NCBI RefSeq assembly: GCF_016808335.1
Contig: NC_053146.1
Coordinates: forward strand, 40,730,470 to 40,794,469
Length of the DNA stretch: 64,000 bases
Origin: Panicum virgatum
Taxonomy: Eukaryota; Streptophyta; Magnoliopsida; Poales; Poaceae
Reading direction: 5' to 3'
Part shown: in pieces, positions 11,809 to 56,941 of the stretch
Position numbering within the stretch: the stretch's first letter is position 1
How the letters are laid out: each line of letters begins with the position of its first letter
The notes under the pieces: model-generated
Databases searched by the model: none
Told to the model about the DNA's origin: nothing
The model's input: the letters and a program-made list of their open reading frames with translations, nothing else
Program-made: the position numbers and the translations under genes

Positions 11809-12196
11809 TTATTTTCCTGTGACCCCAATAAGAACTTTGCCGTGCACAAATTTCTCTCTTGGCAATGCCTTGGTGAATATATCAGCAAAATGCTGATCAG
11901 ATTGGCAAAACACCATTTTAACTTCTCGGCCCTCAGCTGCTTCCTGAATATAATGATACTTGATCGCAATCTCCTTGGTCCTTTGATGATTCACAGGATT
12001 TTCACTTATCCTTTGCAGCAGAATAATGCAGTTCACTTGGACTACTCATAAATCTTGATAACATACTAGCAGCATACATAGTACCAGGTCGTGTTGCGGT
12101 CAAATATAATAAGTTTCCAACCAGACTTCTGTAAATTGTCAAATCAACCTTACTTGCTCCGTCATTTGTCTTCTGTTTCATAAGGCATTGTAACAC
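11809..12196 (-). pseudogene. Ty1/copia polyprotein fragment (end of RT to RNase H)
   Basis: Reading leftward, the first piece (12196-12002) has the copia hallmark YRSLVGNLLYLTATRP and SRFMSSPS. The second (12036-11809) has the RNase H end with the QHFADIFTKALPREKF signature. The two pieces are in different frames. Neither end of a copia element nor an LTR is recognised nearby. Element A begins at 12189, at the upstream edge of this scrap, so A may have inserted into it. Confidence 0.85.
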
Positions 12197-14605
12197 CCGG
12201 ATACTCCGGCCATTGGCCCGGATACTCCGGACGTGGAGTTTTTATTTCCATAATTTGGTCATCTGGACCCCCACAATCATTTAAATAGAAAATATCACTC
12301 TCTCTCTCTCTCCCTCACTCTCACTCTCTCCCGTTACCTCTCTCTCCCTCACCTCCCTCACGAGCTCTCCCTCTCCTCCCTCTCCCCTAAGCTCTAGATT
12401 CCGAAATCTTTCATTTCAACTTGATTCCAAGGCCAAGGGAGCTTCACTCGGTGTGGGGGATCATCTTCTACAAGTATTCCACCTTGGGGCGACATCGTTT
12501 TCGAGTTTTCTTGCAAGAGGAGCTAGCTCAAGGTACTAGAAGCTAGGGTTCGCCGATTTGGTTGTTTTAGGATGTTCTAGGTGATTTCCTTTAGTCAATC
12601 ATCTCTATATGCATCCTTGAGCTAGGATTCAAGAGGGTTTCAAATTTGGTGTGTTGGTTTTGCCAAAATCAAGAATTCAGTTTTTGGGGCGAAAATGCTA
12701 TCGGGTCCGGAGACTCCGGGTTTTGGAACACTCCGGGCGAAACTCCGGGTATAAGCCCGGATACTCCGGGTTTGGGTCACTCCGGGGGAAACTCCGGGTA
12801 TAGGCCCGGAAACTCCGGACTTGGGGGTCCAGATACTCCGGGTATTCGTCAGATACTCCGGATTTTTGGGGAATATTTTGGGCCAGGGAGTGCAATTTTT
12901 GTGTAAAATACTAGTAGTCGCATCTAGTCATTGGCTATTTTAAGATTTCAACCCATGCATGCATTCTCATATCATTTGCATACGTGTAGACGCCGCCGCC
13001 GAGGGAGCCGTGTACGAGGTGATCGCCGAGCCACAGGAGCTGCAGGGGCAAGTTCAGCAGGAAGAACGACGTGAGCACCCGGCCCAAGGCCCAGCTGAGC
13101 CCAGTGTCGAGCAGCAGCCCGAAGGCAAGCCCCGGTGCACATCCTATTATTTTAAGTTATGACACCTATATATGTTTCTAATACTTATGCATTAAGTTCA
13201 GGAATTGTTTGGAACCCTAGTTGCATGATCCCTAGGATTCCCTGAGTTATACTAGTATGTATAGGACGATAGAAGTGCTATGCTTAATGTTTCCGGTAGA
13301 AGACGAGTGGTCTCCTGCACTCGCGAGATATAGGATAGTTTTATGTTTCCATATATGAATTACTAATCTTCGGATAAAAGTCTTGGAATGAAAGAAAGAA
13401 TAGAATCTGAGACCGGGCGGGAGAAGTGTAGTTCCGCCTGTGTCGGTTAAGGACCGAGCCGTTGTTGGCCCTGCTGATCATGTTTGAATTGTACTAGCCG
13501 CATGCCGGGAGTAGGAGCTAGTCGAAACCGGTAAGCCGAGTACTGCTTTGCTTCGAAAGTACAGGAACCCGCACCCAACTCCTGGGGCGAGTCGAGTAGT
13601 CGCGGAGAATTGAGGATGCATATGTTTACTTTTGGTGGTCTCACGTTGAGCTCGGCTGACCATATGTCGTTGGGCTGGTTCCTGTAGTTCGAGGCGGGGA
13701 GGTGAAAGGTTGGTGCGTGGGGTCCGACGGGGCTTTTGGGTGCCGTGTTGGTTAGGTCCACCTTGCAAAGGTTAAATCGAATCGATTCGCCGTCAGTCGC
13801 TCTCGGATATGAGCACCTTGGTCACTGCGTCGCAGCGTAGTGTTATAACGAGATGATGAGTATATTTATATACATATGATGATGAACACCTTTAATTATT
13901 GTTGATTGCACCACCATGTCTGCTATAGTTGGTCCATGCAAATATTAGAATAGAGTTAATTTGTATATAATCTTGGGCTAAAATAAGGAAAGTAAGGAAT
14001 TACTTTAGTCGTTGTTTTCTGCAAAATAACCACCAGCCAAAAGCCTTGCATGTCTAGATATGTGGGCTAAGTTATACCCACTGGTCGGGTAAGTCTTGCT
14101 GAGTATTAGTTGCTTAGGGCTTTGTTGGAAAAATGATTTCAGGACCCGCACACGTGGACTTCTGTCCGTGTTGCGCCAAGTTTGTTCGACTGGATGCGGA
14201 TGGGTGGAACGTCGAGGACCCAGGTGCGTAGCTTTGGGGTGTTGGAATTGCATACTCGTGGGCTGAGTGTGTAATTCTTTGTCGTTCTTATACATTGTAG
14301 TGGGCAGATTTCATGTGTATCAAACTTTGTATAAAAGGCAGCTGCACTCGTATAATATTATGTATTTCGAACTCGGTTTGTAAAACTCCTTGTTGTTATC
14401 GTATGCCACTCTTGTATATTTTCAAACATGGATTGTGCTTGTACCATCTGCGCCCACCTTCGCGTGGGACTACCGGTGTTGTTTCGATCGGGCCGTGGGT
14501 TGAGAAAGGATCGCCAAATTAAGCCGTTAAGCTAATGTGCCCGATGTGTTCAAATGACAGTCATTACGCTTAATTAGAGTTTTAATTTGGCGGTTCCGTC
14601 ACGGG
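12189..14605 (+). mobile_element. Insertion element A (TGTAACACC...GTCACGGG), superfamily not assigned
   Basis: The promoter-side end reads TGTAACACCCGG and the far end reads CCGTCACGGG. A CAT triplet flanks both ends (12186-12188 and 14606-14608), giving a possible 3-bp target duplication. Two related elements lie at 32101-35390 and 54366-56938. All three have like termini, 3-bp duplications and one small split gene. Element A also has a TTTAAATAG box near 12279, a CT-rich leader, and a cluster of ACTCCGGG words at 12702-12862 repeating its own terminal motif. No transposase, reverse transcriptase or long terminal repeat is visible, so it is non-autonomous or an unrecognised type. Confidence 0.65.
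12990..14231 (+). CDS. Small split gene of element A: acidic exon, GC-AG intron, terminal exon
   Basis: Only the last two coding exons are called: 12990-13124 (135 nt) and 14143-14231 (89 nt, ending TAG). The first is rich in Glu, Gln, Ala and Pro. The intron (1018 bp) starts with GAAG|GCAAGC, a GC donor, and ends TTTCAG. The phase is 1 on both sides of the acidic exon, and splicing keeps the frame open to the stop; the terminal exon includes a CPCC motif. The same exon plan occurs in elements B and C. A likely leader exon ends near CAAG|GTACTAG (12531), but its frame shows no ATG, so the start is unresolved. Function is unknown. The peptide may be a captured host tail or an element-specific acidic protein, and I know of no transcript evidence. 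Confidence 0.5.
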
Positions 14606-14608
14606 CAT

Positions 14609-16880: not shown

Positions 16881-18006
16881 TAGCCCTGCTAATGGGTTGG
16901 AACCCGCACCATACCCAACCCCACCCAAAATTAACATATTTAGATACCCAACCCCACCCAACCCAATTAGTTAATTTCTCAACTCTAACCAACCCGCCCC
17001 ATTATAAGCGGGTAACCCATAAAAACCCATGGGTTCTACTATGCAGAGGAATTTAGTGGTTCTACACTTAATGTGGGGACCACATATATGTCTAGTCACA
17101 CTACTTTGCACAGAGTATCTGTCAGTCATATTGACTCATCTCTAAAAATTTCAGTCAATTTCGATAAAATTTTATAGTGTGAACGCGAGGTTTTAATTCC
17201 AGGGTCCGGCTCTTGATGTGGAGTTCACGTGTAGTTCTAGCCACGCTATTTTGCACAGAGTAGCTACCAGTCGTACTGAGTCATCTCCAACAAATTTCAG
17301 TCAATTTCGATAAAATTTTATAGTGTGAACGCGAGATTTTAATTCTAGGGTCCGACTCTTGATGTGGAGCCCACGTGTAGTTCTAGCCACGCTGCTTTGC
17401 ACAGAGTAGCTGCCAGTCATACTAAGTCATCTCCAACAAATTTCAGTCAATTTCGATAAAATTTTATAGTGTGAATGCGAGGTTTTAATTCTAGAGTCCG
17501 GCTCTTGATGTGGAGCCCACGTGTAGTTCTAGCCACGCTGCTTTGCACAAAGTATCTGCCAGTCGTACTGAGTCATCTCCAACAAATTTCAGTCAATTTC
17601 GATAAAATTTTATAGTGTGAACGCGAGGTTTTAATTCCAGGGTCCGGCTCTTCATGTGGGGCCCACAGGTAGTTCTAGCCACACTGCTTTGCACAAAATA
17701 GCTGCCAGTCGTACTGAGTCATCTCCAACAAAATTCAGTCAATTTCGATAAAATTTTCTGATATAAACACGTGGTTTTAATTTCATAGTCCAGCTCTCAC
17801 GTGGGACCCACATTTATATATAGTTATACTATTTTGTAAAAAATATCCATTTCAACCCACCCCAACCCGCATCAACCCGCATTTATATAGAACCCGCCCC
17901 GACCCACCTCATTAACTAATACAACCCATTTTAAATCATCCAAACACACTCCATTTCAAAACCCACCCCATAAAACCCATTTCAACCCAACCCATTAGCA
18001 GGCCTA
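16881..18006. mobile_element. Non-autonomous hAT element carrying a tandem array
   Basis: Terminal inverted repeats: the left starts TAGCCCTGCTAATGGGTTGG, and the right, inverted, starts TAGGCCTGCTAATGGGTTGG. They are flanked by an exact 8-bp duplication GGCAGGGG (16873-16880 and 18007-18014), which fits the hAT superfamily. Length is 1126 bp with no transposase. The interior is mostly a 146-bp tandem repeat bordered by AACCCACCCC-type sequence. Confidence 0.88.
17080..17845 (+). repeat. 146-bp tandem repeat, about five copies
   Basis: Units begin at 17080, 17226, 17372, 17518, 17664 and (partial) 17809, a spacing of 145-146 bp. Each unit has CACGTGTAGTTCTAGCCAC, TTTGCACAGAGTA, and a shared AAATTTTATAGTGTGAACG-type core. 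Related units in the opposite orientation occur at 31800-32100 and 35391-35470. Confidence 0.9.
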
Positions 18007-19161: not shown

Positions 19162-19950
19162 TGTTGGGGGTGCCACCTTCGGCCATCGACCGAAGGTCCG
19201 TGCGCAATTTGAATGCAACGACAAGGTCTCCTCCCGGCTCGGCAAGCCGAGTAGTCAAAGGGCTTCAAGCTTCGGGCGAAGACCGATGCGCCTACGGCGA
19301 AAACCGATTCGCCACAGGCGAAGACGAAGAGAGGCGAAGAGTGACGAAGACCGAGGCGCCTACTGCGAAGACCGGTTCGCCTACGGCGAAGACCGGTTCA
19401 CCACAGGCGAAGACGAAGAGAAGCGAAAAGTGACGAAGACCGAGGAGCCTACGGCGAAGACCGGTTCGCCACAGGTGAAGACCGGTTCGCCACAGGTGAA
19501 GACGAAGAGAAGCGAAGAGAAGCGAAGAGAGGCGAAGGCCAGGGCGCCGACTACGAACTCGAAGACCAGAAGGGAAGGCGTCGGAGAGTAAGCGCTTCGA
19601 AAGCCGCAAAGGGAATCTTGTAATAGGCCCAATGGGCTGTAATGGGCCCAATGGGCAGAAGAGGCTCGGATGTAATTTACCAAATGATGTAAAAATACGT
19701 TTGTACCCTGGGAATATTTGGGGAATATAGTTGTTAGGGGGCATTACGGTGTAATAACGGAGGGTGGTAGGTGAACCGTCACCTATAAATACCCGACCCC
19801 TGTACATTGATGGGACACATTGAATACAGAGAGAGAATCCAACTTACTGTGCGAAGCCTCGTTTCTGGCTTGGAGTTGTTCACTTCGACTGGTGCGCTCT
19901 TTCTTCACTGTTGTAGTGTTCGTCCGTTCCGGAAGCACTCTCCACCAACA
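19162..19950 (+). repeat. 5' LTR of the gypsy element
   Basis: 789 bp, TGTTGG...CCAACA, with a TATA box (TATAAAT, 19784). The first part contains a minisatellite of GCGAAGACCGGTTCGCC-type words (about 19265-19520), and differences in copy number explain the length difference from the 3' LTR. Confidence 0.95.
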
Positions 19951-19993
19951 GTTTGGCGCCCACCCGTCGGTTCGACACACCACGCCACACCAC

Positions 19994-21926
19994 ATGGCGG
20001 CGAAGAAGAAGGGAGACGCTACTACCACTTAGACAGACACGACAACAACGACGACAACTCCGCAAGACGAAGCTGCCCCCGGACAAGAGCCCGCAACCGG
20101 CAACGAAGACATCACCATCGAAGACATCGCAGAAGGTCAACACGAAGTCGATCTACTGGACCTTGGCATCTCTGCCGAAGACATCGCTGCAATGCGAAGG
20201 GTTGATGCTCGCCTCGAAGAGGCACGAAGAGCCAAGATACAAGCTCTTCAGGAAGAATCTACGGAGCCTCAAATCATCACGAGGGCGAAGGGGAAGGAAA
20301 TAATGTTGACTGAAGCAGAAAGGCAAGAGCAGTACAACAAGCTGCAAGAAGAAGATCTTCGCTGCAAGGCGTTAGAAGAGAAGATCAGAGCACAACGACT
20401 GATGCTTGAAAAAATTCAGGCACCGCAGCCGCCGCAGCCACTGCCGAAGGGCACGGTCGCAAAGAACCCACCAAGAAACGCAAGGGTCCGAGCAAGGACT
20501 ATACCAGTCGAAGAGATCTCTGACCAGTCTGAGCCAGAGGAGGATGGGTATTATCGAAGGGGCCACCCGCGAAGAACGCCATTATCCGAAGAGTTGGAAG
20601 AGATACAACGGCCTCATCACCTCAACCCAGCAGTACTGCCTCAGTTTGATGGTGAGTCCGACCCCGAAGAGTTTCTCCTAAAATACGAAGCCACCATAGA
20701 GGCGGCCGGAGGAGGCACAGCGTGCAAGGCGAAGGCACTTGTCCTCGCGCTGCGAGGACTGGCTCAGCGATGGTATGCAAACATACCCCCAGGAAGCATT
20801 CTATCCTGCGACTTCCATAACTTGAAGCAAGGAAGCATGACTTTACAGGAGTACCATCAGAGCTTGATAAAGCTTCGCGCAAGAGGGCCAGATGTCACTG
20901 ACCAGAGCATTATCGACTCAGTAGTCAATGGGATCAGCCTCGGCCCATGTGGGGAGTACTTAACCCGACGAAGGCCGAAGACAGTTACCAAATTGTTCGA
21001 GATAATGCAAGAATATTGCATATTAGACCGTGCGAAGAGGCAGAAGCTCGAAGAAATGAATGAGAAGAGGAAGTCAAGGAATAGCGAGAGGTCGCACCAG
21101 AAGCCATGGCATTCCGACCTCTCGAAGTAAAAAACTATCAATAGCGTCTCTGAGGAGGAGTCACGTGAAACCAGGCACCACAAGAACAAGGGCGGCAGAG
21201 ATCACCGCAAAGACAGATCTAGCCGCAAAGACAGATCTAGCTGCGAAGATAGATCTAGCCGCGAAGATAGGCCCAGCCATGATGACAGGTCCAATCGCGA
21301 AGATAGATACAATCGCAAAGACCGCTACCAGAAAGGCCGAAGAGAAAAGGGTGGCCGAAGGGAAAAAAAATACCATTTTGCTATTTCCATGGGAAGGACC
21401 AAGGTCATTGGACCAATGAATGCCCAATCGCAATTGAAACGAAGGCAAAGCTCGAACGCAAAAATGCACAATCAGCAAAACCAGTAAATTACACTTCGCA
21501 ATCACCGCATCCAGTTCCTCTTCCACAAACCACCTAGACCCCAACACCAAATTGGCCAGTATCATATCCAGTTTACAACTACAACCCATCATACACACCT
21601 CCAATGTCATTGCCTTCGCAACAATCCATGCCACCACCTTCGCACCAGTCGATGCCGATGCTACCCGCTCCGCAGTACGCCAACACATGGTCAAGGAGCT
21701 CCACGCCTTTACCCCCACCACCGAAGCTCGAGACAGGACAGATACCGGAAAGAGGGGGCGACGGACCCTCCGGCAGCATGGTTAACATCATCAACGCCAT
21801 CTCCGGAGGATCCAATGAACCAGTTCATGAGACGAAGAGGCAACGCAAAGAATACTTCAGAACTGTCTCTCATGTGAGCGAAGGCAAATGTTTCCAAACT
21901 CCGTGGTCGCATGTCCCGTACACTTG
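19994..21926 (+). pseudogene. Gypsy gag, interrupted
   Basis: The ATG at 19994 opens a Lys- and Thr-rich start, but an in-frame TAG at 20030 cuts it after 12 codons. The frame then runs open to 21130, covering an acidic/coiled region and the Retrotrans_gag capsid domain (about 20640-21030, with RWYANIPPGSI and MTLQEYHQSL words). Past 21130 the frame changes and becomes repetitive (Ala-Lys-Ile-Asp units, 21200-21330). A zinc knuckle of the C-x2-H type follows near 21372-21430. The capsid packages element RNA in the intact family. The gene is then cut by the nested CACTA fragment. Confidence 0.8.
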
Positions 21927-22607
21927 GATTTCCAACTGTAGGGCCCCCATGTTATTCAAATAACTTTGCGAAACAAAATAAAAAGTTCATGAGGTTCGAA
22001 CCCATGAGCTGCTCTACTGTTTATGGCGGACTAGTCACCACAATGAAATTTGATTTGTACAAGATCAGTATTTTACTAATTTTAAATAAACACATTGTTT
22101 TTATTGCTCCTCAAATTGTCCTGTGTGTTTACATAACAGACATGGGAAAAGTCATATTTCCTTCCGTTAGCTCCCGTTACTTGGCTGATGATCATCTTTT
22201 CTCTGCACAGTAAACAAAAAGCTTGCCGTGTGCACTTATGACCACTAGGGAAATTTTCCCAGAATTTTACCGTGCGTTATAACCCATCCCATGTGTTCAA
22301 TTGCAACACAAGGAAAGATAAGATAAATATGATCCCGTGTGCAGAAAAATGTTTCCCGAGTGTCCATTAACAACACATGGGAAATATTAGAAAGTTACCA
22401 AGTGTCTTTTAAAATCCCGTGTGTTCAATTGCAACTCTAGGAAAGATAAATATGATCCCGTGTGCTGAAATAGTTTCCCGTGCGTTGATTATAAACACAT
22501 GGAAAATATTAGGAGATTACCAAGTGTTTGTAGAAAACACACGGGAGTCCCTCTTGACACTAGGGAGTCCCTCTTGACACTAGGGAGCGTTGCCGATTCT
22601 AGTAGTG
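21927..22607 (+). mobile_element. CACTA-type fragment nested in the gypsy element
   Basis: The right end reads GATTCTAGTAGTG (to 22607), the inverse of a CACTA terminus. GAT flanks both sides (21924-21926 and 22608-22610), a possible 3-bp duplication. The left end does not begin CACTA, so it is truncated or mutated. Inside, a subterminal unit of about 130 bp (TGTGTTCAATTGCAAC, GATCCCGTGTGC, TTACCAAGTGT) occurs twice, and a 20-bp unit ending in GACACTAGG is duplicated at 22545-22584. No transposase is present. Confidence 0.6.
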
Positions 22608-25170
22608 GATCTTCGGCTACAACACTACCCTCACAATGATCCCCTTGTCATCAGAGCCAACATTGGCAAGAATTCAGTACACTTCGCTGGGAATGACGTC
22701 GGAAGGATATTGGTCGACAATGGCAGCTCCGCAGACATTCTGGTATGGCAGTGTTTCGTCAAGATGAGGTTCACAGAGCAAGCTCTGAAAAAATCGCAAT
22801 ACCCTCTCATTGGCTTCGGAGGCAAGAGAATCGAGGCCCTCGGCAAGATAGAGCTCAACGTCACATTCGGCGAAGGTGTCACGCAAAGAACCGAAGCAAT
22901 AACCTTTGACGTAGTGGACATCAACTATGCATACAATGCCATCTTCTGCCGCAACACCGCAACACCCTGGTGAAGTTTGCAGCTGTAATCCATCAGCCAT
23001 ATCTATGCATGAAGATACCTTCGGCAGGGGGAGTCGTGACCGTCTACGGCAATCAAGAAGAAGCGCGTAGGTGCGAAGATAACGCGTATAGCACCAACAA
23101 AACTGTGCATACCATTGAGGCTACCGAAGAGGACACAAGAACATTTGTTGCCAAAGACATGCGAAGAGACCATAAAAATGAAGGGGTCTCACCAGCAGAA
23201 CATACAAATAAGGTACCATTATGCGAAGATGTGCCTGATCGTCTGGTGATCATCGGCAAGGAGCTCGAGGAGCACGAAGTGGTAAGACTCATACGGTTTC
23301 TGAGGAACAATCAAGACGTCTTCGCATGGTCTTCGTCCGACCTCCGAGGAGTCAGTCGAGAAGTCATTGAGCATACGCTTACAGTCAACCCGAAGGCAAA
23401 ACTGATAAAGCAGGGGCAGAGGTCAATGTCCGAAGAGAGGAAGAAAGCATCATAGGGTGAGGTGCAGAAATTACTAGACGCAGGTGTCATTCGCGAGTTG
23501 CAATACCCAGAGTGGTTGGCAAATGTGGTCATGATACTGAAGAAGAATGGGAAATGGAGAATGTGCATCGACTTCACCAACCTCAATAAGGCTTGTCCGA
23601 AGGATGAATACCCTTTGCCTCGCATCGACACATTGGTCGATGCGGCGGCAGGCTCAGAAATGCTGAGCATGCTGGATTGTTTCTCCGGCTATCACCAGAT
23701 TTTCATGAATAAGGGGGACGAAGAGAAAACTAGTTTCACTACTCCCTTTGGGACATACTGTTACATCAGGATGCCAGAAGGCCTCCGCAACGCAGGCTGT
23801 ACATTTAACAGAATGATCAAGAAGGTGCTCGGGGATCAGCTAGATAGAAACATCTCTGCATATATGGATGACGTGGTCGTTCGAAGCAAGAAAAAAGAAG
23901 ATCACATACAAGATCTTCATGAAACATTTGCAAACCTTCGCCGGCACGGGCTAAAGCTAAACCCTGAAAAATGTGTCTTCGGTGTTCGAAGAGGCAAGTT
24001 GTTGGGTTGTATGATCACAGAAAGGGGTATAGAGGCGAACCCTGAGAAGATCGAGGCAATCAGGCGGATGAAGCCGCCAACCATAAAGAAAGGAGTTCAA
24101 AAATTGACAGGTCGATTGGCTTCGCTGAACATATTCATCTCCAGGTCGGTAGAAAAGTCTCTCCCGTTCTTCAAAGCACTAAAAGGAGCTGGCAACATGC
24201 AATGGGGCGAAGAGCAAGTGAAGGCATTTGAAGCCTTGAAAACATTTATAGAAAACATGGCAGTCATGTCCAGCCCTTCTAAGAAGGCAGAGCTCTTGCT
24301 GTACATCGCCACTTCGGGTGCCGCGGTCAGTGCAGCTCTCGTCGAAGAGAGATTAATCAAAGGCGAACTTAAGCAAGTCCCCATCTATTTCGTCTCCGAA
24401 GCCCTGAGTGGCTCGAAACTACTATACTCCGAAATGAAAAAAAAATGGCTTACACAGTAGTCATGGCTTCGCGCAAACTTCGCTACTATTTCCAGAGTCA
24501 CAAGATAAAAGTTCCAACTTCGTTCCCTCTTTGGGATATGTTTGAAAACAAGGAGGCCTCTGGCAGAATAGGCAAATGGGCTACAAAACTAGCGGAGCAT
24601 ACAATTGACTTCGTCCCCAAAACAGCAATCAAGTCCCAGGTCTTGGCAGAGTTCATTGCAGACTGGACTCCAGCGGTGCCTTCGCAAGAAACACCGAAGT
24701 TAAAATCAATATGGCAGCTTGAATGTGACGGGGCATACCAGAGAGATGGGGCAGGGGCTTCGGCAATCCTCACTGCCCCATCGGGCACACAATTGAAATA
24801 TGCAACGAGGCTAGACTTCAAAGGGTGCACAAACAATGTTGCAGAATACGAAGGCCTGCTCCTAGGTCTTCGCAAGGCAAGAGCACTGGGAGCGCGAAGG
24901 CTGTCAATCAGATCCCACTCGGAGCTAATCACTGGACACATCAATAAAACCAATAGAGCACTAAAGCCGGAGCTGTCAAAGTATCTGGCAGCCGTCCGAA
25001 GCATGGAGAGGTTTTTCCTCGGATTCAGCATATGGAGCTTCCCAAGATCGCAAAACAAGCAAGCCGATATACTGGTGAAGGCTGCAGCTCAATATGATCT
25101 GCTGCCACCAGATGTGTTCTTTGAAACATTGAAGCAGAGCTCTGTCAACTACGCCGAAGAGCCTGTATAA
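22608..25170 (+). pseudogene. Gypsy pol: protease, reverse transcriptase, RNase H
   Basis: The protease has its DNGSSAD active site near 22720. RT (about 23460-24060) carries the YMDD box (23860) and SMLDCFSGYHQI. The RNase H tether and RNase H proper (24720-25130, CDGAYQRDGAGAS and NNVAEYEGLLLGL) follow. Lesions: a frame change near 22970, an in-frame TAG at 23453, a frame change in an A run near 24440, and a TAA at 25168. Each domain is individually recognisable and keeps its catalytic residues. In the intact family this polyprotein copies element RNA to DNA. Confidence 0.9.
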
Positions 25171-25212
25171 TTCATCAACGCCATAACCAGCGAAGACTGG
25201 AGGGCAACCATA

Positions 25213-28016: not shown

Positions 28017-28114
28017 CGAAGGCGTTAGATACAGTGATACTCGAAGGCGTTAGATACAGTGATACTTCTATTTTCAAAACTACACTACTACAAAAATCAC
28101 TAGGCCTTCAGTCA

Positions 28115-31739: not shown

Positions 31740-32100
31740 GGGTGCAAGGCATCCGTTGACACGGATTTTGACCCTTCCCTATTACCACCCCTATACACAT
31801 AAAATTGTATATTAACTAACATATTACTCAGCATAGTGTGGCTAGAATTACAGGTGGACTCCATATCAAGAGCCGGATTCTGGAAATAAAATTTCGCGTT
31901 CATACTATAAAATTTTATCGAAATTGACCGAAATTTTTTGGAGATAATTTAGTATCTGTCAGCTACTCTATGTGAAGCAGTGTGGCTAGACCTACACAAG
32001 GGCTCCACGTAAAGAACCGGACCTTGGAAATAAAATCTCTTGTTCACACTATAAAATTTTATAAAATTGATTGAAACTTTTAGAGATGACTCAATATGAC
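31740..32100 (-). repeat. Second site of the 146-bp repeat, left of element B
   Basis: About two and a half units in the opposite orientation to the hAT array (CCACGTAAAGAACCGG and CCATATCAAGAGCCGG are about 144 bp apart). The array continues on the far side of element B at 35391-35470. No hAT ends are seen here. Confidence 0.8.
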
Positions 32101-32370
32101 CGTGAAGCGTCCCCTCATAAGAGAAGACTTAAATGTGATACAAAGCACCAGTCCCAGGAGGCTGATGCCACATTTATTACATCAGATGGTTCAAAACCGT
32201 ACAAACCTTGGAGGACACTCGATACAGATGATGATAATTATTAACCAAGCTACAACATAACACCAGACTGCAAACCACATAGGGTCTACTACGGGCTCAG
32301 AGTACTGCGACAGCGGAGGCATCTCAACGGGGCCGGTACCACAGGCAAGGTTGGGTGTAGAACGATAACC

Positions 32371-33617
32371 CTACTCGGCGTCGTCTGGAACGAAGTCCGG
32401 GTCTTCTTCTGTAAAAAGTGAGAATGGGGTGAGTACGAACGTACTCAGCAAGTCCAACCACACCCACGGAGGGGTTAAATCAGAATAATATGCCTAGGTA
32501 AATCAAGGATAAGGTTATGGTTTAATTTGCAGAAAAACGATATTTTATGCAGGGGTTTGTTTTAAAGAAAACCTTTATGAAAATCAATTTCAGAAGTAAC
32601 ACGGAGTTTCCAATTTTTAAACTGCTACCGGACTCCCCGTCCGTCGTAGCACACGGCACAACTGCCGGAACCAATTCCAAAACAACTCACACCAGCCCAT
32701 CCCAAAGAAACACTAGTTATGTGACCACACCGTAACTCGCCCAATACCGTGGGCACGGACTATTCGAATAGATTCTTAACTCTGCAGAGGTGTGCAACTT
32801 TACCCACAAGTAGGATACCACAACTCGAACACCGTCGTGTCGGTGTAGATCCCAACATAGCCATTACCCACCATAGCTAAGCCTGACTAGCCATCACGGG
32901 ATGTACCAAGGGGTCATCGACCGTTCACTTAGGTATAACCGGGCATAAGTCACTCGGGCTTATCCCTTTTCCTTAGTCACCCGTTGCTCTCAGCTCTCCT
33001 GATGGCTATCACACCAACTAGTGGGATTTATGCTACGCCGTTGCCCATTCAACGGTCGAGTGGTTTGCACGATAGTGGAGTTAGGTGAGATGACACACCA
33101 ACTCGGTCCTTAGACACGACAAGATGGATATCTCCCTTCTTTGCCCTGCCACACAGGCATAAGCACACCAATCGGCAGTTCACACAGAAATGCCGTCCAT
33201 CCCGTCCGTACTCATCTTTCGAAAATCCACATTTTATTCCCTTCCCACACGCACACATTTTCTTTATCAAATAAATTATATTATGAGTAGAGTCCTAAGC
33301 GTTCTAATATCGATTAACGTCCAAGCAAAATCGGACGTTAATCTAGGTGGTCAAGGAATGGTCATCACAAATCAAGGGGTGGCTATCCAACCGTGTTTTC
33401 ATGCAAGCAAAACATATGCAATTTTATTAAAACAGGCCATTTGGTTGTGTTCATAAAAACTAGGACAGAAACATGCATCAAAGGATGGGATTGAACTTGC
33501 CGTCTTTGTAGCCTTCGGGGAGGTCCTGTCCTTCGGGCTCAGGGTCGCGGAACTGGTCCTCGTTCCCTTGCTCGCAGTATTGCTCGTTAGCGGGCTCTCC
33601 TTCGATCACACCGTGGT
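32371..33617 (-). CDS. Small split gene of element B
   Basis: The acidic exon 33617-33501 (117 nt, rich in Glu, Gln, Asp, Gly) is followed by an intron of 1092 bp that starts GACG|GCAAGT and ends TTTTTACAG. The terminal exon 32408-32371 (38 nt) reads EEDPDFVPDDAE and stops at TAG. The phase is 1 at both borders, as in A and C. The hairpin GAGTAC-GAAC-GTACTC lies at 32431-32446, about 20-35 bp upstream of the last acceptor. A leader exon with a good GT donor (34445) and an upstream TATA box would supply the missing first base. I found no ATG in the needed frame, so the start is unresolved. Confidence 0.5.
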
Positions 33618-34602
33618 CTACGACGCAAACAAACAAGCACACAGTCAAGACACAGAAAAATAAAGATTTATCGTTGAGCTCGAATCGGAAATAATTAAGA
33701 TATGGAGATAGGAGTAATATTTTTGGGTGGTTTCCTAATGGCACGGCCAAAACTATATTAGAAATGGCGTGATCGGATTTGGAGGCACTCGAAGAATTTT
33801 TTTTTGGCGCATGAAATGATAGGTTAAGGAGGTGTTTAAGGGCTAAACTGTGGTTAGGGAGAGTCGAAAATAGGATGAGTGGGTAGTATATGATTTTATA
33901 GGAATTTAGGGAAAAGAATCCATGGAATCAGAGTTTATTTGTGTGAGATATGGCTTATAGTGTGTAGCTACCATTTAATTCCGAAAATTAAAATGACGTG
34001 ACTAGTTCATACTGGATTAGTATGTCGCGTGTGATAGGTGATTTGGTTTGTGCGCATGTGCAACAGAACTAGTGGCCCATTAGTCCCCGCATGAGCCCAC
34101 AAGTGGACCAGCCCAGAAAAAAAAGAATCAGGCGAGAGGCACGGTCAGCACTGGAGGCCCTCGTGCTCCTCTGGTCGAGCACGCCATGGCCAGAGACAGG
34201 AGCTCGCCGGAGCTCCGACGAAGTGATGATTCCGGCCACCATTCCTAAAACTGAGGACATAGTTAGAGAGAGGAGGGAAAGGGGGTTCGATCTTGGGGCT
34301 TCCCAACGAGGGCTGCTGCGGAAAGAGGAGGGAGCCACGGGCGGCCATGGGTGGCGGCCGGCGAACTCGTGGAGGGCTCTGTACAAGAAGGGATAGGGAG
34401 GGTCGCAGCTTGGGAGAGGTGGAGGAAGGTGTGGAGATGCTCACCGTTGAGGGAATTGGACCGAGATGGCCTGAGTGAGGAGATCGACGACGGTGTCTGA
34501 GGCTCTGTTCGCGGAGCAGAGGAAGAAATTGGGAGAGGCAGAGAGCTGGCGGAGCGGCGCGGCTTGGCGAGCTTGGTGATGGCGTGGAGAGCAGCTTGGG
34601 GC

Positions 34603-34612
34603 GCTTTTTATA
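34603..34612 (-). promoter_or_regulatory. TATA box in element B
   Basis: On the minus strand it reads CTATAAAAAG, followed by a C/T-rich leader and a canonical donor AACG|GTGAGC 160 bp on. It would drive the split gene. Confidence 0.5.
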
Positions 34613-35393
34613 GGCAAGGAGAGGCGGTGGAGGAGGGAGGCACGGCTGCGAGCTCTGTAGCTCGCTAATGGCAGTGGGGCACCGCGTGTGCGGCCAGCCC
34701 TGCTCGCCGGCGAGCGTGAGCGCCTAGGCAGGGATGGGACGGGGCAGGGCCAGTGGCCGCAAGCGGGGAAGGCGACGTCCGGGGGCGGTGGCCGGCTAGC
34801 GAGCATCGCGGGGCGCCATTAATGGCGCTCCGGCCACTTGCTCGTGTCGCGAAGCGGCGGCGCTGTTCGGGCAGAGCGCTCGGCGAGCGGCGAGGCGAAG
34901 CAGGTGACGGGACGCGTCGAGCAGCGACGAGCGGCGCGGCGGGCGTCCTGGGCACGCGGAGCGCGTGGGTACAGGCACGCGGCAGGGCGAGAACACGCGC
35001 GGGGCAAGCTCAGGGACGTGCGCGCGCACAGGCAGGAAACAGGGGAGAAGGAAGGGGAAAGAAGAAAAGAGAAGAAAAGAAGAAAAGAAAAGGAAAAGGA
35101 AAATGAGGAGGAGAGAGAGAAAAAAAAAAGAGGGAAGAAAAAGAAAAGAGGAGCGCGGCGGGATTCGCGGCGGACGGTCGCGCGTGGGCGACAGGCAGCC
35201 GAGCGGCGCGGGATGGGACGGCGGCGAGGAAAAAGTGGAAGGGTTTGGTCGGTGCTTTGAAATCGGATGACAGAACAGCGGGTGAACTGGGAGAGGATTA
35301 CGGTTCAGGGTTTAAGGGGGAGTCGAGCTCAACGACAAAGAAAACAGTTTTAGCGCACGATTTAATTTAGTGAATTTTCGGGATGCTACAGAC

Positions 35394-43429: not shown

Positions 43430-43900
43430 TCAAATCTATGGATTTGATAAGTAGGACATCTGTGAAGAGTAAGATAGGTTTAATATTGGTGCAAAATAGT
43501 TTGAATTGTTTCAACTTTTATAGTATAGAATGATAAATTTAGATAGATTACCAGTAGATCGTCCATCTGCCAATGAGTCGTCGATTTTGCGCTCAATATC
43601 CAGGGCGGCGGTTCGCGAACTGGTACGGTGGTCCCATCAAACAAACAAACAAATAACAAACAAACCCTCGAACGGCATTACGAAAGAAATCGAAGTTGCA
43701 TTTTGCCTCCCCCCCTGCATGCAGGCGTTGCTGTTAGCTCTAGCAGATGGATCTGCATGCGGATGCACGGTTATCTCGCCGATCTCATCCGAGTTCTCTC
43801 TTCCGTCTCTTCTTCAATTCTCTCAGCTCCTGCTTGTTCGAAATCGTTGGTTCGAGCGCACGCGAATGGGCAGGTTGTTCGCGTCGTTCGGCGATCTTTC

Positions 43901-43908
43901 TTTTTATA
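43901..43908 (+). promoter_or_regulatory. Possible TATA box of the LBD gene
   Basis: TTTTATAG about 165 bp before the start codon, followed by a GC-rich leader. Confidence 0.4.
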
Positions 43909-44070
43909 GCCCACTATTCTCACGGTGAGGACGAGAGGCAGGCAGGGCGAGAGAGACCTGGCCCCGCGCCCCTCTCTCCATCTTCGAATTCCCCTCTCCC
44001 CTATCCCTACGACGCCGCCGACGCCGACGCCGAGGGCCCCGACCTCGCCGGCCGCGCACGCGTGCGTACC

Positions 44071-45129
44071 ATGTCCTCCTCCTCAAAGCCACCACCACTC
44101 CTCCGCCTCCACGTCGACACTGCCGCCGCCACCACCACCGCCAACGGCTCGGCCGCCTCCTCCGGCTCCAAGTCCTCCTCCCGCTCCCCGCGCCCCTCCG
44201 CCGCCGCCGCCTCCGGCCCCGGGGGCGGCCAGAACCAGGCATGCGCCGCGTGCAAGTACCAGCGGCGCAAGTGCAACCCGGACTGCCCGCTCGCCCCCTA
44301 CTTCCCCGCCGACCAGCAGCGCCGCTTCCTCAACGCGCACCGCCTCTTCGGCGTCAAGAACATCCAGAGGACGCTGCGCTGGATCGACCCGGAGCGCGGC
44401 CCCGACGCCATGCGCGCCCTCATCTACCAGTCTGAGGCCCGCGCCGCGGACCCCGTCGGCGGTTGCGTCACCATCATCGAGCAGCTCCAGAGGCAGATCG
44501 AGCGCACCGAGTTGGAGCTCGCCTACGTTAAGCAGCAGATCGCCTTCTACCGCCAGGCCGCCGCCGTCGACCCGCTCGCGGACCCGGCGATGATCCTACC
44601 TCCACCTGATGCAGCCGCCGCCGTGGCCGGCCAGGACCACCAGGACAATGCCGCCGCCGTCGCTGTGGGCGCGCTCTACGCCGGTCAAGAACCCGTCCCG
44701 CCAGGCGCCGCCGGGCTAGTCTTCCAAGACCAGCAAGGTTACCACCACCACCATGTCCTCAAGGCCGACCAACAGAATCATCCACCGCCGCAGCAGCTCT
44801 ACAATTACTTCTGCTACGACGGGACGGCTGCCGACGAGAGTACCCAAGATGGGAGCGTGCAGCAGTTTGGAGGTTTTGCCGACACCGGTGGTCTCAAGAT
44901 TGGGTCGCCGACGTTGGCGACCCTCGGCGAGCAGCTGGAGCAGCAGTGCCAGCTAGACGCGTTCGACGTCAAGCCACCGGGCTTGCGGGCGACAACGGAA
45001 CGCCTTGGCCCTGCTGACGAGCTCATGCGTCCAGCCGAAGATCACCACGACGTCGATCAGCACATGGAGGAGCCGGCAACAGCGGTGGCGGCGCCATGCC
45101 ACTTGGAGTTAGGCTTCTCCTCCTTCTAA
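44071..45129 (+). CDS. LOB-domain (LBD/ASL) transcription factor, class I
   Basis: A 352-residue single-exon protein. After a Ser/Ala-rich head comes the LOB domain: the zinc-like C block C-x2-C-x6-C-x3-C (Cys58, 61, 68, 72; CAACKYQRRKCNPDC), the GAS block (FLNAHRLFGVKNIQRTL...) and a coiled-coil tail (QLQRQIERTELELAYVKQQIAFY, about residues 140-165), which is what defines class I. The long tail is Gln/His/Ala/Pro-rich, as in activation regions. LBD proteins bind DNA as dimers in the nucleus and control organ or pollen development. The spacing and the KYQRRKCNPDCPLAPYFPAD wording look closest to the LBD22/LBD27 branch, from memory only. The frame is open upstream to 43747, but the ATG at 44071 lies just ahead of the conserved part and follows the leader, so it is preferred. 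Confidence 0.92.
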   Translation: MSSSSKPPPLLRLHVDTAAATTTANGSAASSGSKSSSRSPRPSAAAASGPGGGQNQACAACKYQRRKCNPDCPLAPYFPADQQRRFLNAHRLFGVKNIQRTLRWIDPERGPDAMRALIYQSEARAADPVGGCVTIIEQLQRQIERTELELAYVKQQIAFYRQAAAVDPLADPAMILPPPDAAAAVAGQDHQDNAAAVAVGALYAGQEPVPPGAAGLVFQDQQGYHHHHVLKADQQNHPPPQQLYNYFCYDGTAADESTQDGSVQQFGGFADTGGLKIGSPTLATLGEQLEQQCQLDAFDVKPPGLRATTERLGPADELMRPAEDHHDVDQHMEEPATAVAAPCHLELGFSSF

Positions 45130-49342: not shown

Positions 49343-49350
49343 TATTTAAA
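49343..49350 (+). promoter_or_regulatory. TATA-like box of the DUF4408/DUF761 gene
   Basis: TATTTAAA 138 bp before the start codon, with no better box nearer. Confidence 0.45.
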
Positions 49351-49487
49351 CTCCACCCGTGCGTACTCGAGCCCCCACACGAAGTCTAAGTGGTAAAGCC
49401 TCTTTGCTGTCAAGCCGTTCTCGGCCTCGAGAGCAGCAGTGCAGCGCGGGGAAAGAGCGAAGGAGAATCCCACCGAGCTTGGCAACG

Positions 49488-50144
49488 ATGGCGGTGGCGT
49501 GGTGGTGGCCGTCGTCGCTGCCGGCGTGGCTGGGGTACGAGGCCGTGTGGTTCGTCGCGCTCAACGCCGTGGTCGCCGCCGTCGCCATCCTGTCCTCCCG
49601 TGCGCGGCCATCCCAGGCGGCGACGCCACGCCGCGGCGGCGGGGTCACGAGCAGGGCCTCCTCGGCGGTGCTGCAGAGCCTCCGCTCCTTCTCCCTCTTC
49701 TCCTTCCCGTCCGCCTGCATGTCGTTCCTCCAGCCCGACGCCGCTGCGCCCGCCTATCAAGAAACAGAGGAGCTGGTGCGTGTGCGTTCGCCCACCAACA
49801 AAAACAAGCCGCCGTCGACGCGCGCGCTCGTGCTCGCACCACCGCCACCCTCGGCGGCGGCAGCTGAGGAGGAGGACGACGACGAGGAGGAGGACCCGAA
49901 CGCGATGAGCATGGACGAGGCCTACGCGCTCGTCCTTGCGTCGCGGCAGCGGCCGGAGCGGGAGCAGGAGGAGGAGGCGAGGCGGTCCGAGGTGGATGCC
50001 AAGGCGGAGGAGTTCATCCGGAGGTTCAAGGAGGACCAGCGGCAGCAGCGGCTCAACTCCATCTTCAACTACACCCAGATGCTCAAACAACGTGGGCTCG
50101 CCGCCGGCCGCCGGCCGCCGGATGCGAGGCCAGATCAGCTTTGA
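49488..50144 (+). CDS. DUF4408/DUF761 plant-specific protein, intact copy
   Basis: A 218-residue single-exon protein. The N-terminus (residues 10-40, WLGYEAVWFVALNAVVAAVAIL) is a hydrophobic, probably membrane-anchoring segment typical of DUF4408. A low-complexity middle holds an Asp/Glu run near residue 130. The C-terminus (about 165-200) is the DUF761 motif VDAKAEEFIRRFKEDQRQQRLNSI, then YTQMLKQRG. Family members are poorly understood small proteins with growth or stress links. The start at 49488 is chosen because the conserved N-terminus begins there, although the frame is open further upstream. A related scrap (50740) and a broken copy (53976) follow downstream. This is the only copy that looks functional. 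Confidence 0.85.
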   Translation: MAVAWWWPSSLPAWLGYEAVWFVALNAVVAAVAILSSRARPSQAATPRRGGGVTSRASSAVLQSLRSFSLFSFPSACMSFLQPDAAAPAYQETEELVRVRSPTNKNKPPSTRALVLAPPPPSAAAAEEEDDDEEEDPNAMSMDEAYALVLASRQRPEREQEEEARRSEVDAKAEEFIRRFKEDQRQQRLNSIFNYTQMLKQRGLAAGRRPPDARPDQL

Positions 50145-52290: not shown

Positions 52291-53808
52291 GTGCTCACTA
52301 ACCTTTCGGTCGTGTCAGGCTGTCAGCCACTTTAGCTCTAGTTAGCTCCAGATTAGTCTGGGGCAACTGTGGTGCTGCATTTGTATATCTTTGTTTCGTA
52401 GTCGTACTACTTTAAAATATGATTATCCACTCTACGTCTCACATGAAAAATAATATATTTAGGTACATCAGTGGCGAAGTTAGAGCAATTTGGAGAAATG
52501 TGCACATATCTTGTGAGTGTATAGGGTTGAGACATTGGAGGTGTAAATATAGTGAAAATTTGGACATAACTATTATTTTTTTCATTTTTTAGAGGGTGCA
52601 TTAGCATCCGCTAATCATCATATAGCTTCGCCCCTAGGTACGATAATGAAATGTTTCATTCGGAGGGAGGATATTTCATTAATGAAAATGTACTTTTAGT
52701 GTATTCTGATTTTAAATTACACAGTTAGCTTCTGACCACTTCAGATTTGCGACCAAACAGAAGTCAAGTGATTGGTGATCCCAACCAACTACAAAGGGCT
52801 AGTTTGGAAACTCAATTTTTTTTTTTGGAATCCCTGACTTTTTCTAGGATGAGCAATTTATGAGGATGTCATTCGAATAAGACATTTAGTTTATTAATGG
52901 GTGGTTTTCCTTCTCTCGATTTAGCTCCCCTTATTTCCAAATTAGTCCTTAAACTAGGGGATTTCATTTGACTAGGCCAAACAATATAGTAATTTCAGCT
53001 CCTTTCACTCCCCCACTACTTAAATTTGTCCAGTTTAGAGAATCTCCAGCAAATTAATTATCTCACATATCTTATATATTTTGTCTCTCCATCACCAATA
53101 ATAATTTTATACTTTTAGTAACTAATGTTGTAGCAGATTACTCAAAAAATAGGATGGGTGGAGAAATCCCTACATTTGAGCAAGAGAGTAGCGATGGAAT
53201 TGGTAATCTGCTGAAGCAACTCCTCCCATTACCAAAAGAATAGATTTTTATTATTGGGGAAGGATTAATATAATCTACTGCAGATGCTCTTATCTCCTAA
53301 TAAAAATTGTTTGTTTATCCTCGAACAAGTTTTAGCTTCAGATTTTGTGGGGTTAATACATGACACCAGATCCTTCCTAACATTTGATTGGATGTCTGCA
53401 CCCACAAATTCTGGCCAGAACCTAAACTTGTACGTTAAGAAGACAAATTTTACTAGTAGGTGGTAGGCGTAGATCAAACCACTTTGAACAATTTGAAGAT
53501 TAAAACAAGCAGAAATTTTGTTTAGAGGTCGGTTGGATATAAAACGAATCATTTGGGTTATAGCAAAATGGATTTTACCCTAAGGAAGAATATATGTTGT
53601 TATTTAATAAAAGTAGGAAAAAGCTGGTAGAATAATTATCGTGGAGGAAATCAATCACTCTAAGTAAAGACTCTAACCTTGACTGCATTGCTCTACTAGT
53701 CTACTCCAGGTGGATCTAGTACGCGCCGAAATGGGCGCCTTCCCCTGCAGCGCTTGTTTTTTTTAAAAAAAAATTCCTCTGCATCTATTCTAATCCACCC
53801 CCACACGC
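52291..53808. other. Upstream region of duplicate copy 2, no gene
   Basis: AT-rich, with no protein signature. It accounts for much of the extra distance between duplicate copies. Confidence 0.4.
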
Positions 53809-53816
53809 TATATATA
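53809..53816 (+). promoter_or_regulatory. TATA box of DUF4408/DUF761 copy 2
   Basis: TATATATA 167 bp before the start codon, well placed. Confidence 0.5.
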
Positions 53817-53975
53817 CCCTACCCGCAACTGCCCAAGCAAGCAGAGCCTCTCTTCCATTCTTGCCGTCAATCTCCTCCTGTCCTGCCTTTCCTGAGTTCG
53901 AAGCAGAGCAAGCAAGAGAAAAGCAACCGCGCCAAGCAGCAGAGAGCGCGGCCGATCGTGTTGGCCGGCGCGCAG

Positions 53976-54365
53976 ATGATGGCGGCGGTGTGGCGGTGGC
54001 TGCCGGTGCCTGCGTGGCAGGGCCCCACCGCGCTGTGGTTCGTCTTCCTGAATGCGGTCGTCGCCGCCGTCGCCGTCCTGTCCCGGCCCCGGCCGCCGCT
54101 GGCGTCACCCCGCCGCGGCGCGGGAATCACACGCAGGGCCTCCTCGGCGGTGTTGCAGCGCCTCCGCTGCTTCTCCATCTTCTCCTTCCCCTCCGCCAGC
54201 TTCAACACCCCACCGTTCCCGCAGCCTGACGCCCCCGCCGCCGCCCAAGAATCAGAGGAGCCGGCGACGGCCCGGGCCGTGATCAGGTGGCAATCGCCGA
54301 GCGCTGCGCTCCCCTCGCGCCGTCGCCCAAGGCAGAGCTCGTACAGGTGGCGGAGGGGGGCGAAG
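53976..54365 (+). pseudogene. DUF4408/DUF761 copy 2, 5' part
   Basis: ATG ATG GCG at 53976 opens a close relative of the gene at 49488 (PAWQGPTALWFVFLNAVVAAVAVLS, then ASSAVLQRLRCFSIFSFPSAS). Near 54280 the frame that aligns with copy 1 changes by one, and at 54365 element C cuts in after GGCGAAG. The remainder lies at 56942. The frame change and the insertion both disable it. Confidence 0.85.
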
Positions 54366-56938
54366 CATGTGAGACCGCCCAATTTAATACTATTTTAAAC
54401 GAACCGCCAGTCATTGTCTTCCAGATAAGAGTTAACACGTGCCTGCCAGAGAGCGTGCCACGTGTTACCTCACATCTAGAGACACGAATAACCGACACGT
54501 CATTCGCCTAAAATAATATTAAATCTGGTAGTCCCGGTATGTGTTCCAACATACGCCCAGAATCAGCATATACACATACCGTTTACAATCGAATACATCA
54601 CCAAAGAACCACAAAGAGCAGTTTTACATTACCTGAGTTCAAAACTTAACATTACCAGGTCAGCATAGGAAGGTTCAAACTATTCACCATTACAAACCTT
54701 AGCCTCACAGAAGCCATATTATACAGAAACTTAAAGATTATTATATTTACATGCTCTCACGAAGCTCGATTATGATAAAACCGACTACGATGATGATATC
54801 TTGCTCAAGGACACCATCCCAGCTTCAACGTCCTACTCCTCCCCCGCACTTGGCTCGGCGGGGTAGAAGTGGCCGAACACCACTTCCGGTTCACCTGCAA
54901 CTAGGGTTAGAAGCACCCTGAGTACAAAGGTACTCGCAAGACTTACACGATTAAATAAATAAAGATCATGCAAAGGCTCGAGTAAAAGCTTTAAGATTAA
55001 GTAATTATTGCATAAGCATGAGCTCTCTAAACTAACACCTAGTACAATTAATTAATGTTGCCCGAACACCATTAAATTTTAGTAGAACATATTAAGAATA
55101 ACATAGTGATTCCCGAGTTACTAAAACCCACTTCAACATGACCGTAACTCTACGAGGAGTTCATGGGATAAAGAGCGTGCTCATAACCGAGACCGCGGCA
55201 ATTCGAATTGATTCAAACCTTGCAAGGGTGTACTACTTTACCCACACGACGCGAGGACCATGCGACTCACCCAACCGATTACGTCGGGCAAGTGGGTACT
55301 CACGTCAACCGTTCCCAACAAGGCTCAACCGTTGAGGGTACGCCCAGTTTGCGTGTGGAGACTTAGTTCCACCGATGTCATCTCTAATTTTTTTCCTTTA
55401 CATAGTTCCACTCGGGGACCCACTAAGCCTCCCTGCATAGCCCTTAGCCACATATCTGGGACCGGGCCTCAATGATCAAGTCAAAGAAGGTAATTGGCTC
55501 ATCCGTACTATTATATTGGATATGTGGTAGCACGGAAAGGTGCTCAAAACCAACTTCATCCACTGGGTCCTTAATCAATCCAAGCGGACTATGCCCATGT
55601 GACTTCATTCTCTAGGCCCTACTATTACTCCTGTCTACCAAACTCTTACCACCAAGCCGAACCAGTGCAACAAGGATAACCGGTAAATGTGATCCTCCAA
55701 ATTATTCCTGTCTAGCGAGCAAAAGAAGTACTCTAAGCAGGGCTAAGCATCTAGTCAGGTTAAGTGATTAACTGACTAACTAGTGCCAAGAACGAGGATA
55801 ACAAATCAAGGAAGGATAATGCACGCATATAGGTACAAGAATGCAATACATACATAAAATACATATAACCCCAACATAACCCGATGAGATAACTATCTGA
55901 CTCAGATTAAATAGGAGCAAGGAATCATGCTTAGCTGCTTGCCTCGGTTAGCTTCGGGCTCGACCGCGAACTGGACTCCGGGTTCAGGCTCGACGGACTC
56001 GGCGGGCTCCACGGGTTCGTTCTCCGACGATTCGGTCACTATAATGCATGAATGTGATGCATAAATTAGTACGATGCTATGCTTATGCATAAAATAAACT
56101 GCATGAAATGATATGCGGGAAAAGATGTACATGAAACAACGTTTTGAATATGCAATTCTGACAAAACCGGAGATTCCGGTTTGACAAAACCGGAAGTTCT
56201 GGTTTCAAAACCAGATGTTCCGGTTTTCAAAACTTGACAGACCAAAACTGGAAGTTCTGGTTTCTAAAACCTACAGTTCCAGTTTCAGCGGGTTACTTGC
56301 GAACTGTCCGCTCCAAAGAGCCGGATTGTCCGCGACTCGACTTTCGACGCGGCGACCATGGCGCAGCGGCGGCACGGTCGTGTTCCGGCGGCAGAGCAGG
56401 GCCGGAGCGGGCCGAAGGTGGCACGCACGGGGGTGTCTAGGGTGAGACAAAGCTTACCCCACAACTGGACGGCGAAGAGAGGCGACGAGAGAACACCGCG
56501 ATGGCGACAAGCGGTGGCGGGCGAAGGCGCTCGCCGGCGGCCCTGCACGGTGAATAAAGAGCCCGAGTAAGGAGGGGAATCGAGCGAGGAGAAGGAGAAG
56601 ATGCTCCCCACGTGAGGTATCGAGCCACGGCTCACCGGAGACGACGAATCGATGGTGAGGGCGGAGCTCGAACGGCGACGGCAATGGGGAACGGGGAAAG
56701 AGCTAGGGTTTGGGTTTGAGGGGAAAGGGCCGGTCGAACCTTAAGGCGAGGAGAGGAGTGAGGGGGCGGCACGGAAGCCGAGGATGGCCGGTGCGTGTTG
56801 CGAGGATGGCCGGCAGTGGTGGCGATGTGCGGCGCGCCGCGATTCGTGCTCTGCCCACGAAGCAGCGCAAAACCGAAAGTTTCGGTTTTTGAACCCGGAG
56901 GTTCCGGATTTTGAATTTTTCACCCCCTAGATGTTACA
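54366..56938 (-). mobile_element. Insertion element C, related to A and B
   Basis: On the minus strand it begins TGTAACATCTAGGGGG (56938) and ends GGTCTCACATG (54366). AAG flanks both ends (54363-54365 and 56939-56941), and its removal restores the open frame of the disrupted gene across GGCGAAG/GCGAGG. Words like CCGGAAGTTCYGG occur at the promoter-side end and again at 56164-56286. 2573 bp, with no transposase and no LTR. Like A and B it holds the acidic-exon gene. Confidence 0.82.
54833..56038 (-). CDS. Small split gene of element C
   Basis: Acidic exon 56038-55943 (96 nt, Glu/Pro/Val-rich), then an intron of 1048 bp starting CGAG|GCAAGC and ending GTTGCAG, then terminal exon 54894-54833 (62 nt) with stop TAG. 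Phase is 1 at both borders, and spliced frames stay open, as in A and B. A hairpin GAGTAC-AAAG-GTACTC lies at 54920-54935, just upstream of the last acceptor. The beginning of the gene is not identified, and no function is known. Confidence 0.5.
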
Positions 56939-56941
56939 AAG

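Follow-up and report, generated by a model that had tools for sequence, protein, structure and literature searches.

Three insertions, A, B and C, in a 64,000-nucleotide stretch of Panicum virgatum DNA (the whole stretch analysed, hereafter the window) are solo long terminal repeats (LTRs) of three Ty3/gypsy retrotransposon families. Taken as a whole, the data are very probably best explained by a small, spliced accessory gene that resides in these LTRs. The usual view of LTRs is that they are promoters and terminators. If a conserved gene that is both spliced and coding does lie in the LTRs of abundant plant elements, it would be a new accessory function, and solo LTRs would be potential small genes scattered over the genome. 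An earlier sequence-only reading had proposed three elements here, and when the sequences were re-read they were present at about the places it gave. Their features are as follows.

12184..12188 (left) and 14604-14608 (right), no strand: target duplication of A, 5 bp, GGCAT
12189..14603, + strand: element A, solo LTR, 2415 bp, TGTAACACCC...GTCACG; 5/5 duplication, same-strand paired copies in the genome
12280..12287, + strand: TATA-like TTTAAATA of A, a possible promoter by prediction only
12990..13124, + strand: A exon 2, 135 nt, acidic; coding constraint over copies
13125..14142, + strand: A intron 2, GC-AG, 1018 bp; splicing seen in a relative
13761..13816, + strand: conserved block in A intron 2; the stretch around it (LTR positions 1560-1640) has a mean pairwise difference of 0.053
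14143..14231, + strand: A exon 3 to the stop inclusive, GPAHVDFCPCCAKFVRLDADGWNVEDPGA and stop
32098..32102 and 35391-35395 (other copy), no strand: target duplication of B, 5 bp, GACCG, read from the sequence
32103..35390, - strand: element B, solo LTR, 3288 bp, TGTAGCATCC...GACGCTTCA; compared with the LTR-primer-site junction of a paired copy
32371..32408, - strand: B exon 3 to the stop inclusive
32409..33500, - strand: B intron 2, GC-AG, 1092 bp; predicted, by architecture
32762..32808, - strand: conserved block in B intron 2
33501..33617, - strand: B exon 2, 117 nt, acidic
54368..56938, - strand: element C, solo LTR, 2571 bp, TGTAACATCT...GTCTCACA; sits between two parts of a gene copy
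54833..54894, - strand: C exon 3 to the stop inclusive, GEPEVVFGHFYPAEPSAGEE and stop
54895..55942, - strand: C intron 2, GC-AG, 1048 bp; 11 spliced C-type proteins
55177..55246, - strand: conserved block in C intron 2; LTR positions 1690-1765 have a mean pairwise difference of 0.056
55943..56038, - strand: C exon 2, 96 nt, acidic

In all three elements exon 2 is joined to exon 3 in equal phase, which yields one open frame with its stop at a fixed place. Here the sequence-only reading was accurate: the acidic exons of 135, 117 and 96 nt lie in one phase where it had put them, the introns of 1018, 1092 and 1048 bp, of the rare GC-AG type, begin at G/GCAAGY donors and end in AG, and the stops are in the matching frame in A, B and C. 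Upstream of exon 2 we predict an exon 1 with GT donors at about 12532 (A), 34445 (B) and 56636 (C), and first introns of about 457, 827 and 597 bp, respectively. The same split-gene features were found in 27 copies of A type, 21 of B type and 30 of C type in this genome, window copies counted (the B set is 20 fetched copies plus the window copy) and some of them decayed, and are therefore not a product of chance. Exon 2 is free of frameshifts and stops in 20/27 A, 28/30 C and 21/21 B copies, and the exon 3 stop is in place in 26/27, 27/30 and 21/21. Among the 27 A copies, five have a stop inside exon 2 and four have one inside exon 3. The peptides of A, B and C are all acidic and cannot be confidently aligned between families, so the case for common descent of the families is made by the architecture and by the core of intron 2.

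For the start codon of the small gene, the sequences of A and C offer possible candidates only. AUG is absent from exons 1 and 2 of all three window copies, and no in-frame AUG precedes donor 1 in 25 of the 30 C copies, those in which the donor was found. Some AUG lies within 250 nt before donor 1 in 22 of the 27 A copies, so a leader free of AUG, as in the window copies, is not general in A. When the frame is read back up to 150 nt without splicing, an in-frame AUG appears in 21/27 A and 29/30 C copies, and a start within intron 1 is thus possible; the B window copy has no in-frame AUG within 40 codons.

The exons of A and B evolve as coding sequence. The sequence-only reading had proposed comparing Ka/Ks between exon copies, and the comparison, which uses pooled pairwise counts and is not tree-based, revealed constraint in A (dN/dS 0.32; pS 0.31, pN 0.12) and B (0.19) but gave 0.68 for C. 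Informative sites by codon position were distributed 17/19/44 in the 27 A copies (shuffle P printed as 0.0000, 20,000 shuffles) and 3/7/14 in the 21 B copies (P = 0.0068; P = 0.0113 for divergence). Non-coding windows of A (52 windows) reached at most 0.44 in one phase, against 46/90 = 0.51 for the exons in the same alignment. In the 30 C copies the sites were distributed 14/13/19 (P = 0.47 and 0.12), and non-coding windows reached 0.48 in one phase, above the C exons (19/46). Exon 2 of C gave a dN/dS of 0.56 with P = 0.027 for sites; exon 3 gave 1.03 with sites at 8/3/4. The C copies differ less among themselves, and solo copies may decay freely. The counts exclude exon 2 of the A copies L006 and L016, which have frameshifts, and exon 3 of A copy L017, which is lost; codons with in-frame stops were masked, as were, in C, those past the exon 3 frameshift in L047 and L049. 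Indels shorter than 30 nt are four in A exon 2 (two of them of 3 nt), none in A exon 3, none in C exon 2 and one in C exon 3; the roughly 1-kb intron 2 has 48 in A and 39 in C.

In A and C, most of intron 2 is itself slow to change. Its donor dinucleotide is GC in 75 of the 78 copies (A 25/27, C 29/30, B 21/21), the exceptions being GT in L012 and L041 and AC in L006. Differences between A copies are mostly 0.12-0.13 in intron 2 (0.17 in its last 55 nt), 0.17 in exon 2 and 0.30 in intron 1; the corresponding values for C are 0.065-0.096, 0.093 and 0.173. The conserved block was the slowest-changing of the stretches measured in A and C copies, and it can be aligned between families (B-C 81% over 47 nt, A-C 75% over 56 nt). 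The nucleotide sequences had been described as otherwise far apart; they are largely diverged, but this block still aligns. The low divergence of intron 2 and its alignable core suggest that the intron carries something of its own, most simply an RNA signal for full-length RNA. A palindrome resembling GAGTA...TACTC also occurs in A, B and C and in many copies, some 16-25 nt upstream of acceptor 2. Shuffled sequences reached its stem length in 158/300 (A), 82/300 (B) and 16/300 (C) cases, so the length is not unusual and no structure is claimed here. Scans of the viral_contigs and genome_contigs collections for the hairpin-like acceptor motif found nothing.

Constraint on the frame does not by itself require a protein that acts elsewhere, and the main role of the small frame could be in cis: as an upstream open reading frame it would govern how gag is translated. 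The LTR position would place the frame within the 5' leader of the gag-pol RNA, and the position of its stop is fixed, which is consistent with such a role. However, dN/dS is low across the A and B peptides, which suggests that the peptide sequence itself is important. A cis role is still compatible with this, and we consider it unlikely as the main function, though it deserves serious consideration.

If the exons were instead a spliced untranslated leader, splicing would serve to remove AUG-rich sequence before gag, and the acidic frame would be a by-product of purine-rich splicing enhancers needed beside the weak GC donor. The AUG-free exons 1 and 2 of the window copies are consistent with this, as are the copies' differences in intron 2, mostly no greater than those in exon 2, and the lack of a significant codon signal in C. 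Yet third codon positions are the most variable in A and B, with the low dN/dS values given above, exon indels shorter than 30 nt are few in A and C, and the stop is kept in nearly all copies of each family. Together these observations make an untranslated leader improbable and favor a coding gene.

Is the GC-AG intron removed? The search covered 5.8 billion predicted proteins. When the query was the unspliced A frame, none of the best 120 of 304 relatives contained exon 3. The spliced A peptide recovered 47 proteins, and one of these, P0121, joins exon 2 to exon 3 exactly as predicted; in another, P0127, exon 3 is preceded by intron sequence. Residues 1-58 of P0121, up to the end of exon 2, are 98% identical to a genomic copy at C8:2979342-2979515. 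Where that copy has the GC-AG intron, P0121 continues straight into exon 3. The copy has the donor CAAG/GCAAG and, about 1 kb on, TTTCAG/GACCC followed by 28 of the 29 exon 3 residues of P0121. A query with the spliced alignment of B and C recovered 300 proteins, and the best 120 comprised 11 C-type and 109 B-type proteins. Among the matches listed, nine of the 11 C-type proteins pass from exon 2 to exon 3 at exactly the predicted place, and in the other two (P0147 and P0184) the acceptor is 6 nt upstream. In P0132, P0135, P0151 and P0221, exon 2 is preceded by other sequence. That all 11 are joined is not a splicing rate, because a spliced query ranks unspliced C-type proteins lower. Exon 3 of B was absent from all 109 B-type proteins listed, and no spliced B product was seen. 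No Pfam family was found for P0121, P0151 or the B peptide, and Rfam at gathering scores returned nothing in the window.

As judged from these database sequences, whose source contigs are of no stated kind, the joins show removal of the GC-AG intron in A-type and C-type relatives; in B, the shared architecture predicts it. The proposal that a spliced product is under selection is therefore largely borne out. Joins are present in A and C relatives and constraint in A and B, but no spliced B product was seen and the codon signal of C is not significant.

It might be objected that the spliced database sequences derive not from RNA but from DNA copies that lost the intron through reverse transcription. 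P0121 and the C-type proteins do come from contigs of up to 6333 bp that carry no RNA or DNA label in the database. However, the genome yielded no such copy among the best 150 places for either protein searched: no place extended past residue 63 of 85 for P0121 (best 150 of 4382 candidates) or past residue 56 of 64 for P0151 (best 150 of 2250). Moreover, P0121 and P0145 lack intron 2 but still contain the last part of intron 1. We regard intronless copies as a poor explanation, with little probability, and in either case RNA must once have been spliced at these sites.

The sequence-only reading had taken A, B and C to be independent elements of a superfamily it could not name. This proved incorrect: they are Ty3/gypsy solo LTRs, and full gag-pol copies are present in the same genome. 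We searched the 1.13-Gb assembly that includes the window and obtained 53 match rows for A, 41 for B and 49 for C (best 40 candidates scored per DNA query), mostly on contigs C1 to C18. Many of these matches are same-strand pairs, that is, direct LTR pairs around an internal region. Start to start, the pairs span about 7.4-8.9 kb in several cases for A, 7.8 kb in three cases for C and 10.2-10.4 kb in many cases for B, and some other pairs are wider. C-like exon 2 sequences also occur as same-strand pairs about 5.4 kb apart (C9:483059/488528 and C12:23310754/23316160), many others being about 8.4 kb apart; the closer pairs may be short non-autonomous elements that share this LTR gene.

The internal regions identify the superfamily. 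An A-type region (L028) encodes gag (6.6e-17), protease, reverse transcriptase, RNase H and integrase, and a C-type region (L060) has gag, zinc knuckle, protease, reverse transcriptase, RNase H and integrase domains. In the latter, the integrase zinc-binding and SH3 domains pass and the integrase core falls under the curated cut-off. Both types follow the Ty3/gypsy order of gag, protease, reverse transcriptase, RNase H and integrase. A B-type piece (L108) has gag, zinc knuckle, protease and reverse transcriptase, with gag, protease and reverse transcriptase the only domains looked at as a test of domain order. The C-type region also matches a chromodomain at E = 6.4e-4 and 20 bits, under the curated cut-off of 25.1, and the A-type piece has none; the three families are tentatively read as chromoviruses. 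In the flanks of the internal regions, primer sites resembling TGGTATCAGAG, which we take to match the initiator tRNA, come after the LTR ends, and purine-rich tracts come before the LTRs. A, B and C in the window lack such a following primer site and are therefore solo LTRs.

The target duplications agree with this assignment. They had been reported as 3 bp, whereas A (GGCAT) and B (GACCG) each have one of 5 bp, and in C three of five positions match. B, whose LTR end was set at 32103 from the LTR-primer-site junction in a paired B copy, has both TG...CA ends and a 5-bp duplication. A has a perfect 5-bp duplication but a CG terminus, and its related copies terminate in CA; C has a CA terminus, and four other C-type copies have 5/5 duplications. 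When 31 A- and C-type rows were scored, with the best of alternative LTR ends taken, seven matched at 5/5, many rows being halves of pairs; copies with 5/5 duplications include L005, L006, L037, L045, L046 and L047. A small DNA transposon family with 3-bp duplications and a captured host gene, for which the 3-bp matches and a short inverted similarity between element ends might speak, is virtually impossible given the paired LTRs around gag-pol, the primer sites, the 5-bp duplications and the lack of a Pfam match for the peptides. The paired copies, 5-bp duplications and internal gag-pol likewise rule out a DNA transposon with a 3-bp duplication and a transposase. The sequence-only reading had held that membership in a known LTR element would tell against its gene. 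In form the elements are indeed such pieces, but the spliced gene persists, being inside the LTR.

Several other features of the window were observed. A gene with a DUF761 domain lies at 49350-50141 with a related copy alongside at 53700-57172, and solo LTR C sits inside this second copy; an exact empty site for C was not obtained from the paralogous gene, as its flank is too diverged. A tandem repeat of about 146 bp occurs at 17058-17875 and, in the opposite orientation, at 31835-32062, and the two arrays flank an element at 19162-31193. The B insertion adjoins or falls within the second array. The flanked element, which is probably gypsy-type, has repeats at 19162-19830 and 30556-31193 that are 95% alike, with reverse transcriptase at 23456-24457 and integrase at 25171-26421. 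Transposon remains at 1105-4479 contain Transpos_assoc, DUF4218 and DUF4216 domains and are presumably CACTA-type. A LOB domain frame (E = 2.9e-35) lies at 43744-45126 and an MMR_HSR1 GTPase domain frame at 59449-60816.

A gene split within an LTR raises the question of how its intron survives reverse transcription. We propose that transcription would start in the LTR and produce a leader with two introns. Removal of both would join the small coding exons, and the spliced RNA would be the messenger for a short acidic protein. When intron 2 is retained, the conserved non-coding block and a complete LTR copy would be kept, and this RNA may serve as genome RNA; reverse transcription needs a complete LTR copy, which the unspliced RNA would supply. 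GC donors are weaker than GT donors. A weak donor would be expected to keep splicing partial, so that some RNA stays unspliced and the intron is not lost at reverse transcription, and if partial splicing is required, a GC donor should stay constant across diverged families, as it does. In its broadest form, the proposal is that grass Ty3/gypsy elements carry an old three-exon LTR gene, that its GC-AG intron is a deliberately weak switch which apportions RNA to a small regulatory protein or to packageable genome RNA, and that the LTR serves as promoter and as gene at either end of the element. This could go either way, and we lean slightly against it. The most likely role of the protein, proposed by analogy with retroviral accessory proteins, would be that of an accessory factor acting on the element's own RNA or on its expression, but this is tentative and rather doubtful.

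In the literature searched (titles and abstract openings, with most subscription journals outside it), we found no plant element described as having an intron or a gene within its LTR, and searches of papers for printed sequence gave nothing useful. The Tekay/Del clade has long LTRs, and its chromoviruses resemble the A, B and C families in Ty3/gypsy domain order, TG...CA ends, 5-bp duplications and the weak chromodomain match of the C type. An LTR-resident spliced gene was not met for this clade in the literature searched, PMC6317226 included. Additional open reading frames of plant LTR retrotransposons share with the A/B/C gene conserved frames beyond gag-pol, but according to a review they lie mostly between pol and the 3' LTR (PMC7264820), and the phrases "in the LTR" and "within the LTR" are absent from its text.

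Partial splicing of retrotransposon RNA has precedents. BARE1, Ogre, EVADE, Bagy2 and CRR are plant LTR retrotransposons whose RNA is partly spliced (PMC3735527, PMC12786077), and BARE1 forms separate RNA pools in barley (PMC3735527). In these accounts the introns lie in or between gag, pol or env, whereas the intron of A, B and C lies in the LTR. An accessory protein encoded in a long LTR and made from spliced RNA is known from mouse mammary tumour virus, in the case of Sag (PMC3026287). Sag has its frame in the 3' LTR, and in A, B and C an LTR intron divides the frame; the likeness drawn here is one of placement. Spliced RNAs can also encode proteins that handle unspliced RNA, in retroviruses and in Cer1 of C. 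elegans (PMC3026287, PMC12786077). The spliced RNA of Cer1 encodes a nuclear protein needed for export of the unspliced RNA (PMC12786077). Host and element differ from ours, and the likeness drawn between Cer1 and A, B and C is one of RNA strategy.
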